Below are positions 62,397-64,000 of a stretch of DNA of 64,000 nt, in pieces. The stretch's first letter is position 1. The number at the start of each line of letters is the position of its first letter. The DNA lies in contig NZ_LMSM01000006.1 in assembly GCF_001428125.1 (NCBI RefSeq), forward strand, positions 62,001-126,000. Reading direction: 5' to 3'. The position numbers and the translations under genes are program-made. This DNA is from Nocardioides sp. Soil774. Its GTDB lineage: Bacteria > Actinomycetota > Actinomycetes > Propionibacteriales > Nocardioidaceae. The notes under the pieces are model-generated. The model saw nothing but the letters and a program-made list of their open reading frames with translations. It made no database searches and was not told where the DNA came from.

Positions 62397-63266
62397 TCAG
62401 GTGAGGTGGATCATCTCGATCATGCCCATCAAGGCGTGCGGCATGCCGCCCATCTTCGGATCGGGCATGAAGCAGAGCACGACGTACTGACCGGGCGGCA
62501 GGTCGTAGTCCACGGTCATGGATCGACGCTGCGAGATGACGTCGGCCTGCATGGATCCAGGCATGAACCACGGGGGCGGCCCCTGCGTCTCCGGGCCCTG
62601 GAACGTGGCAAGCACCTCCTGCACCGTGGTGCCCTCCTTCACGCGCTGCAGCTCGACGAAGTGGAGGACCTTCGTGGTGGCGGCGTTCTTGAACAAGAAC
62701 GTGCCCTTGGCGGGCATGGTCGAGCTTCCGCGCCAGCCCGGTCCGTCGGCAGCGACGATCCGGCCGTCGACGTGCGGGGCCCGGCTCCTCCGCCTCGCCC
62801 CGACGACGAACTCCGCCGGCTTAGACGGCCCCTTCTCGCCGAAGGTGAAGGCGAAGTACTTCCCGGGGTGGGGGAAGACGATGGTGCCGGTCCCCCCGGG
62901 AGCCAGTCCACCGATGGCGTCGGTCTTGGCATAGATCCGCTTGATGGCCGTCGCCTTGTTCTTGACGAAGCCGGCCACGAGGTCGTGGGAGAACGACGTC
63001 CAGGAGTACCCGCGGCGGAGCGTCCCGAACGACACGGTGGTGTCACCCTTGCCCGTGACCACGAGCTCGGCGCGACCCGCGTGCAGGCCGTCGACCCCGG
63101 TGAGCCTCACCCCTGTGCGTGTGATGTGGGCAGTGATGGTGGGCACGGCCGCACGCGAGTGCTGCACAGGCCGTGGGTTGGCTGTCGCGGTCACCGAGGG
63201 TGCCGCGACGAGCGCCGTCGTGCACAGCACGGCCACAGCCGCGTGCACGAGCATCTTGATCCGCAT
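62397..63266 (-). CDS. Secreted Met-rich protein, copper-linked context
   Basis: A 289-residue protein with a signal peptide (residues 1-29, VAVLCTTALVAAPSVTATA). The mature part is beta-rich. The C-terminus, PPGQYVVLCFMPDPKMGGMP followed by HALMGMIEMIHL, has one Cys, one His and seven Met in a small region, a composition seen at copper sites and at cupredoxin-like C-terminal loops. Metal binding is inferred. Divergent from a cupredoxin gene; the two probably act in the same process outside the membrane. Confidence 0.7.
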   Translation of the reverse strand: MRIKMLVHAAVAVLCTTALVAAPSVTATANPRPVQHSRAAVPTITAHITRTGVRLTGVDGLHAGRAELVVTGKGDTTVSFGTLRRGYSWTSFSHDLVAGFVKNKATAIKRIYAKTDAIGGLAPGGTGTIVFPHPGKYFAFTFGEKGPSKPAEFVVGARRRSRAPHVDGRIVAADGPGWRGSSTMPAKGTFLFKNAATTKVLHFVELQRVKEGTTVQEVLATFQGPETQGPPPWFMPGSMQADVISQRRSMTVDYDLPPGQYVVLCFMPDPKMGGMPHALMGMIEMIHLT

Positions 63267-63423
63267 GTGGTGCCTCCGTAACTGGGTGGTGCCAGGTCGG
63301 CGACCGCCGGCCACTTCTCGACGAACGCACCCTTGCACCACTCCTCGTCAGTGGTTCTGCTGATGTCCAGACCACCCGACTTTTGGGGATGCCGGACGGG
63401 TGCGGGAGACAGATACTTCACGC

Positions 63424-64000
63424 GTGGGGGGCACGGTCAGGCAGCGATCGGTCATCGGGCTCGCAGTCGCGGCCTGGTGTGCCGCAGCGCTCGTCGCCTA
63501 CGACGTGACCCCGCTGACGATCGTTGCCGGCACCAGTTCGCCAGCGGCACGTGCAGAGGCTGCATCAGGCGGGACGTCGGCCACGATCGTGATCAACCGC
63601 GGGGACGCGAGCAAGTCGTACTCCACACCCCTGGTGACCGTGTCCGGTGATGGCACCCTCAGCGTCACGAACCTCGACGTCTACGACCACACCGTCACGT
63701 CCATCGCGCTGGCAGGCGACGGCACTCCCTTGTTCGACGTCAAGGTCCTGCACGGCACCACGGTGGCCATCCCGGCGGTCGACGGCCTCGCCTCCGGCAG
63801 CTACGACTTCTACTGTCGCTTCCACCCCAACATGCGCGGCACCCTCGTGGTCGACCGGAGCGGTGGGGGCACTGCGCCCGAACCGGTGGCGTTCGACCAA
63901 CCCCTCGTGATTCCCTCCGTGCTCAGCGGCCCGCACGTCCGGTTGCGCATGCGCGAGGCCGGCGTACGCATCCTCCCGACGGGACCGCTCACGCGCATGT
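63424..64000 (+). CDS. Cupredoxin-domain protein, 3' end cut by window
   Basis: The frame is open to the window end, so only the first 192 residues are seen. An N-terminal signal or anchor helix (residues 8-26) is followed by a cupredoxin fold with type-1 copper ligands: His89 in YDHTV, then Cys131, His134 and Met137 in YCRFHPNM (C-x2-H-x2-M, amicyanin-like). After residue 150 a new segment begins (PEPVAFDQPLVIPSVLSG) that looks like the start of a multicopper oxidase-type domain. The GTG at 63424 was chosen; GTG at 63400 is possible. Confidence 0.8.
   Translation, partial: MGGTVRQRSVIGLAVAAWCAAALVAYDVTPLTIVAGTSSPAARAEAASGGTSATIVINRGDASKSYSTPLVTVSGDGTLSVTNLDVYDHTVTSIALAGDGTPLFDVKVLHGTTVAIPAVDGLASGSYDFYCRFHPNMRGTLVVDRSGGGTAPEPVAFDQPLVIPSVLSGPHVRLRMREAGVRILPTGPLTRM

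Follow-up and report, generated by a model that had tools for sequence, protein, structure and literature searches.

A predicted two-domain cupredoxin encoded beside a cupredoxin-fused multicopper oxidase in Nocardioides, and its possible role in an exported copper redox system

Analysis of a 64,000-nucleotide stretch of the Nocardioides sp. Soil774 genome (hereafter, the window) revealed two divergent genes, one encoding a Met-rich protein (MRP) that is predicted from profiles and a structural model to be a tandem, two-domain cupredoxin in which only the C-terminal domain keeps a ligand set, and the other encoding a multicopper oxidase (MCO) that has all three core domains and, fused to them, a cupredoxin providing a second type-1 site. 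We give roughly even chances to the reading that the two products form an exported two-part copper redox system, with MRP as the secreted blue-copper redox partner of MCO. Both genes lie where the original prediction of a divergent secreted pair had placed them, and export-type N termini were read from both translations. The features of the MRP gene are as follows.

62397–63266, minus strand: MRP gene (ATG at 63266, stop at 62397–62399, 289 aa; from the ORF and its translation).
63174–63266, minus strand: N-terminal stretch of MRP that resembles a signal peptide (residues 1 to about 31, an approximate boundary read from the translation).
62793–63140, minus strand: N-terminal cupredoxin-like domain of MRP, residues 43–158, without copper ligands (strand order, profile match).
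62403–62774, minus strand: C-terminal cupredoxin domain of MRP, residues 165–288 (profile match and predicted structure).

The AlphaFold2 model of MRP (pLDDT 89.4, pTM 0.83) is confident apart from the leader, residues 1–24 having low model confidence, and contains two successive domains with the same strand order in each. Compared as profiles, the two halves also matched (score 44.4, P = 1.6e-7); the reversed control scored 12.9, and none of 20 column-shuffled controls scored above 15.8. MRP thus contains an internal duplication. A profile built from 51 homologues matched auracyanin 6kol (E = 1.1e-4), with auracyanin B as a weak further match (E = 0.026), and the C-terminal domain alone matched 6kol with a profile E of 0.0015. 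In the structural comparison, the top match of the C-terminal half was 4hcf, a Bacillus cupredoxin with bound copper (Z 6.6, rmsd 2.4 Å over 91 residues), followed by auracyanin 1qhq (Z 6.5) and then by rusticyanin and plastocyanin. All of the cupredoxin Z values of MRP fall below 8, in the range termed 'middling' by the structure-matching tool, and the auracyanin sequence match therefore matters. On the basis of the predicted structure and the auracyanin profile match, MRP is predicted to have the Greek-key cupredoxin fold.

Pfam and NCBIfam searches of MRP yielded no meaningful match. Neither Copper-bind nor Cupredoxin_1 of Pfam matched the MRP of the window at the curated cut-off, and these two models matched 3 and 2 of the 51 homologues weakly (best E values of 0.017 and 0.026, respectively). 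A PDB search with the single MRP sequence gave a chance match only (E = 0.41), so that the profile was required. Other assignments were also considered. Two-domain laccases were at the top of the Foldseek results (E = 1.3e-7), but with a TM of about 0.24 and an rmsd of about 17 Å; the domains fit one after another and not as a single body, and MRP was therefore not named a laccase. The C-terminal domain of MRP matches the N-terminal cupredoxin of MCO weakly (probability 6, score 20.4), and we do not claim that either arose recently from the other.

The last 30 residues of MRP hold six Met residues, and the mature protein contains a single Cys (C265). Four residues of the C-terminal domain are candidate copper ligands.

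62661–62663, minus strand: MRP His202, candidate copper ligand (invariant in 51/51 and 25/25 sequences; opposite the conserved auracyanin His in the profile alignment).
62472–62474, minus strand: MRP Cys265, candidate copper ligand (invariant in 51/51 and 25/25; aligned with the Cys of auracyanin).
62436–62438, minus strand: MRP His277, candidate copper ligand in C-x11-H (invariant in 25/25; also in 51/51, where it was part of the search pattern).
62421–62423, minus strand: MRP Met282, candidate axial ligand in H-x4-M (invariant in 51/51 and 25/25).

A His, Cys and His together with an axial Met thus occupy conserved positions in both alignments. Four of the 29 extracted sequences, including one with Asp in place of the Cys and one lacking the ligand set, were left out of the first alignment, and 2 of 52 sequences were left out of the second. 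The sequences of the second alignment had been retrieved by searching for GMPHA[LFM]MG, a pattern that covers H277 but none of H202, C265 and M282. Three Deinococcus homologues found without the pattern keep the His, Cys, His and Met and have lost M275 and M280, which favours the classical ligand set in MRP. In two Deinococcus homologues, those of D. aetherius and Deinococcus sp. D7000, the Cys-His-Met motif is present in both halves of the protein; therefore, the ligand-free first half of the MRP in the window is most simply explained as a loss. The original prediction had regarded this protein as having no known function; profile, model and conservation instead point to a two-domain cupredoxin with conserved His/Cys/His/Met residues.

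The loop between the Cys and the second His is unusual. It comprises 10 or 11 residues at all 56 of the 56 sites counted in the MRP family and 9 residues in two Deinococcus N-terminal halves, whereas plastocyanin, azurin and auracyanin have 2–4 residues at this position. MRP does not have the short loop of these proteins and is therefore ranked as a variant blue copper protein. In the alignment with auracyanin, the axial Met falls opposite Met275 and not Met282 of MRP, and no His is present in MRP at the position of the auracyanin loop His in the profile alignment. M275, M280 and M282 lie near H277, forming a Met-rich ligand loop, the shape of which (H-x3-G-M) presumably resembles that of the nitrite reductase NirK. 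We infer that the C-terminal site binds copper and that the long loop completes a type-1 site; given the auracyanin alignment, the C-x10/11-H loop may nevertheless fail to do so.

The second gene runs out of the window, and its end was read from contig C6 of the same genome (positions 122000–136000), on which the window spans 62001–126000. Its features are as follows.

63400–64000, plus strand: part of the MCO gene in the window (GTG start at 63400 or 63433; the gene ends at window-equivalent position 65292; 630 aa).
63571–63855, plus strand: N-terminal cupredoxin domain of MCO, residues 58–152 (Cupredoxin_1, E = 3.9e-6).
63688–63690, 63814–63816, 63823–63825 and 63832–63834, plus strand: cupredoxin ligands H97, C139, H142 and M145 of MCO (invariant in 25/25 sequences).

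Pfam placed Cupredoxin_1 at residues 55–151, Cu-oxidase_3 at 195–308, Cu-oxidase at 366–447 and Cu-oxidase_2 at 512–628 of the product, and the three MCO domains (PF07732, PF00394 and PF07731) each exceeded the cut-off. The copper motifs HxH, HxH, HxxHxH and HCHxxxHxxxxM are all present, and the core ligands (H238/H240, H284/H286, H557/H560/H562 and H611/C612/H613/H617/M622) are invariant in all 25 aligned sequences, namely the own sequence and those of loci L068–L091. PDB sequences matched include MCOs of the bilirubin oxidase type and CotA (8z59, E = 3.5e-60; 1gsk, E = 3.2e-56). Although the model predicted for MCO is middling (pLDDT 72.6, pTM 0.75), its core can be overlaid on experimental MCO structures (8z59, Z 38.4, rmsd 3.1 over 422 residues). 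The NCBIfam equivalog cut-offs for CueO (204 of 525 bits) and PhsA (189.7 of 950 bits) were not reached. The cupredoxin with full type-1 ligands was recognised correctly in the original prediction, and the suspected multicopper oxidase proved to be a complete one once the sequence beyond 64000 was read. In two relatives, MCO has a tail rich in His and Met and also a hydrophobic stretch at its C terminus, possibly a membrane anchor (L089:3378-5465 and L090:2643-4727).

A conserved box is located in the region between the two genes.

63362–63376, minus strand: conserved box GGTGGTCTGGACATC between the divergent genes, a possible shared regulatory site.

The sequence TGGTCTGGAC is present exactly in 15 of 25 MRP–MCO intergenic regions and is absent, even at one mismatch, from the other ten. 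The longer GGTGGTCTGGACNTC has a single exact 15-mer match in the own genome, at the MRP–MCO intergenic region, and six sites at one mismatch (three for the reversed control). The box possibly serves both genes as an operator or promoter element. Reading TGGTCTGGAC followed by GATGAC as -35 and -10 elements was rejected; their spacing varies among subgroups of the alignment, and no sigma factor was therefore assigned.

The own genome (3.85 Mb) contains one MCO match at E ≤ 0.001 and two MRP genes, one of which adjoins the MCO gene; the pairing is therefore more than chance. The second MRP gene is located on contig C7 (L005:4423-5295), between truB and ribF and without an MCO, and the same placement was observed in 10 other Nocardioides loci (L093, L095, L097, L099, L100, L101, L102, L104, L106 and L126). 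A 32-base DNA match on contig C1 proved to be an unrelated coding region and not an MRP gene. Among 145 genomes of the genus and order, including the own genome, MRP was matched in 22 and a long MCO (at least 52% identity) was found in 20. In 17 of these 20 genus genomes with a long MCO, the two genes lie next to each other in divergent orientation. In the remaining three, there was no MRP match (G010), or the genes are far apart (G024) or on different contigs of a fragmented assembly (G048). Additional long MCOs, none of them beside MRP, are present in G026 and G053. The original prediction would have been weakened had the genes not been neighbours in relatives, and in many relatives they are.

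A scan of 84,980 species genomes identified 48 MRP loci, the organisms of which overlap with those of the genus/order and class samples. A divergent MCO gene lies beside MRP in 24 of them (L068–L091), and in two more (L108 and L109) MCO is located downstream of MRP on the same strand; the stretch examined contained no MCO in the other 22, some of which are short contigs. At L068, L089 and L090, two tandem MRP genes adjoin one MCO gene. In L068–L088, the pair is flanked by glgB and, in most, also by a GNAT-Nudix gene and PPDK. Because of these common flanks, the 21 loci are not independent, and adjacency within the genus is largely shared synteny. The pair is retained at L089, L090 and L091, where the usual genus flanks are absent. 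The pairwise distances of MRP and MCO are correlated at r = 0.88 (partial correlation of 0.80 given glgB) over 20 of the 21 loci, the pairs not being independent and L072, with its cut glgB, being left out. Among 18 neighbouring proteins picked from the loci, none recurred by function as a further neighbour besides MCO; two more proteins in the comparison were the MCOs themselves. The gene after MCO encodes a fused GNAT acetyltransferase-Nudix protein (L004:5333-6355, window-equivalent 67332-68354), which has a partial match in some relatives.

Linkage was also found outside the genus. In a class sample of 394 genomes, one other family (f17) has the divergent pair in four genomes (G180, G260, G157 and G212), where it adjoins 4 of the 10 long MCOs of that family. 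The pair is thus kept in seven places with differing flanks or in another family, namely L089–L091 and the four f17 genomes, although two of the latter lie on contigs equal in length to those of L089 and L090. In two further actinobacterial families (G315 and G393; G204 and G187), MRP is followed by a co-directional MCO of a different type, with no recognised N-terminal cupredoxin. Four plasmid records match MRP, at five places of which the best in each record was examined, and the homologues are annotated as 'hypothetical protein'. The gene order is MRP then MCO on a Deinococcus ficus plasmid and MCO then MRP on a Deinococcus sp. D7000 plasmid; the last stretch of the D7000 MCO matches the window MCO profile over its N-terminal cupredoxin, and a similar cupredoxin-like stretch was seen by eye at the end of the D. 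ficus MCO. No MCO was found within 5 kb of MRP at the best place in D. aetherius or in Streptomyces NBC_01001, and none of 11 deeper phylum relatives has an MCO within 1.5 kb (0/11). The side-by-side genes in some distant bacteria suggest that MRP and MCO work together outside the cell. In addition, a Chloroflexi metagenome-assembled genome contains four tandem MRP-like genes (L114:2670-6477), and at another locus (L184:4977-6547) a gene for a sigma-70-family factor lies divergently opposite a ligand-intact MRP.

We also compared the ligand state of MRP with its linkage. The class sample yielded 42 MRP matches at E ≤ 1e-20, of which one was incomplete and left out. With 'beside an MCO' labels assigned by hand from the loci, 14 of 25 ligand-intact MRPs were beside an MCO, as against 1 of 16 ligand-less ones (one-sided Fisher, 0.0012, relatedness not being corrected for); in the lone ligand-less case, MCO is 1 kb away. 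The remaining 11 of the 25 ligand-intact MRPs are away from any MCO, as is the paralogue in the own genome. Actinomycetes homologues minus one or more ligands are found at L190–L203. The existence of ligand-less homologues indicates that the fold can be kept without copper. The fold, the ligand conservation, the fusion architecture and the linkage are all supported by computation.

Several known systems resemble parts of the pair. The auracyanins of filamentous anoxygenic phototrophs (6kol and 1qhq/1ov8) are the best profile match of MRP and share its cupredoxin fold and aligned His and Cys; however, auracyanin is a single domain with C-x4-H-x4-M (6kol, 1ov8), whereas MRP has two domains with C-x10/11-H-x4-M and is not of the auracyanin type. 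The core of MCO is like that of the laccases and MCOs CotA, bilirubin oxidase and CueO (8z59, 1gsk, 2yxw) in sequence, fold and copper motifs, but differs from them in having a further cupredoxin, with type-1 ligands of its own, at the N terminus. Hyphomicrobium NirK (2dv6) is a copper nitrite reductase in which a type-1 copper domain is fused to a cupredoxin-built catalytic core. It is among the structural matches of MRP (Z 5.4) and offers an analogue of how a fused cupredoxin works; in contrast to NirK, the enzyme here is an MCO of the O2-reducing type, accompanied by a separate two-domain cupredoxin. In the PcoC/PcoA (CopC/CopA) systems, a Met-containing exported copper protein occurs with an MCO, but no CopC match in Pfam was obtained for the window MRP at E ≤ 5 or for the 51 homologues at E ≤ 0.1. 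In Rhodobacter capsulatus, a published account (PMC8456105) describes CutF, an exported protein of 118 aa with a CxxxC motif and a Pro-rich tail, as an accessory protein encoded beside the MCO CutO, strictly needed for its activity and proposed to supply it with copper. MRP differs from CutF in its length of 289 aa, its cupredoxin fold and the absence of CxxxC.

Under the redox-partner reading, MRP would be a secreted blue-copper-type protein with a C-terminal site made up of His202, Cys265, His277 and Met282, which would take single electrons from a cell-surface reductant and pass them to MCO. The electrons would enter via the MCO's own cupredoxin or go straight to the core type-1 copper, and the trinuclear centre would reduce O2 to water. 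The combination of an O2-reducing core with two cupredoxins, one fused and one separate, suggests electron delivery, by analogy with the cupredoxin-fused NirK. The electron flow and its direction, the reductant, the contact between the partners, the substrate and the physiological purpose of the system are what we infer here. We would extend this reading only tentatively to an undescribed extracellular chain, running from a diffusible two-domain long-loop blue copper protein through a fused cupredoxin to an O2-reducing MCO, that was assembled in both Actinomycetota and Deinococcota with differing MCO architectures and gene orders.

The main rival to the electron-transfer reading is copper delivery, in which MRP would be a copper carrier or maturation factor giving MCO copper as a cofactor, or Cu(I) as a substrate. 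Gene neighbourhood is unable to separate the two. The Met-rich loop of MRP would suit a carrier, and CutF and CutO, as described in PMC8456105, provide a precedent for a small exported copper-site protein beside an MCO. However, the fold of MRP is that of a cupredoxin, its His and Cys fall opposite the corresponding residues of a blue copper protein in the alignment, the Met residues lost in the Deinococcus homologues are M275 and M280 and not those of the ligand set, many MRPs occur without an MCO, and the copper chaperone families of Pfam had no match at the thresholds used; we regard the carrier reading as somewhat unlikely. The original prediction of an extracellular copper delivery or oxidation system stood insofar as the pair is real; the predicted cupredoxin domains of MRP and their conserved ligand set speak for electron transfer no less than for delivery.

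It is also conceivable, although improbable, that MRP is a structural or ligand-binding protein, or carries a relict or different metal site, and shares regulation or environment with MCO without interacting with it. Consistent with this, 16 of the 41 classifiable matches in the class sample lack the ligands and many copies, such as those between truB and ribF, are distant from MCO; on the other hand, MRP recurs beside MCOs in several gene orders and in two phyla, and the copies beside MCOs are enriched in intact ligand sets. The adjacency might even be nothing other than the inherited gene order of one genus together with coincidence, as the flanks shared by L068–L088 would allow. This explanation is very improbable, being largely refuted by the persistence of the pair without those flanks in L089–L091 and by its occurrence, in different gene orders, in further families and a second phylum.

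Cupredoxin chemistry is known, as are MCOs. In the open-access literature searched, we recognised no paper describing the MRP–MCO pair, and the available part of PMC5158116 does not concern it. Within that literature, neither the long-loop protein with its two domains nor its repeated association with MCO appears to have been described. To our knowledge, no natural electron source is known for many bacterial MCOs. If MRP indeed serves as their dedicated redox partner, a set of exported MCOs would have a physiological electron donor that can be put to the test, and the cupredoxins would gain a type with an unusually long Cys-His loop that is missed by present family models. Should MRP prove to be a copper carrier, it would represent a structurally new kind of factor for loading MCOs. 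On either reading, the pair provides a gene-neighbourhood handle on proteins that are annotated as hypothetical.
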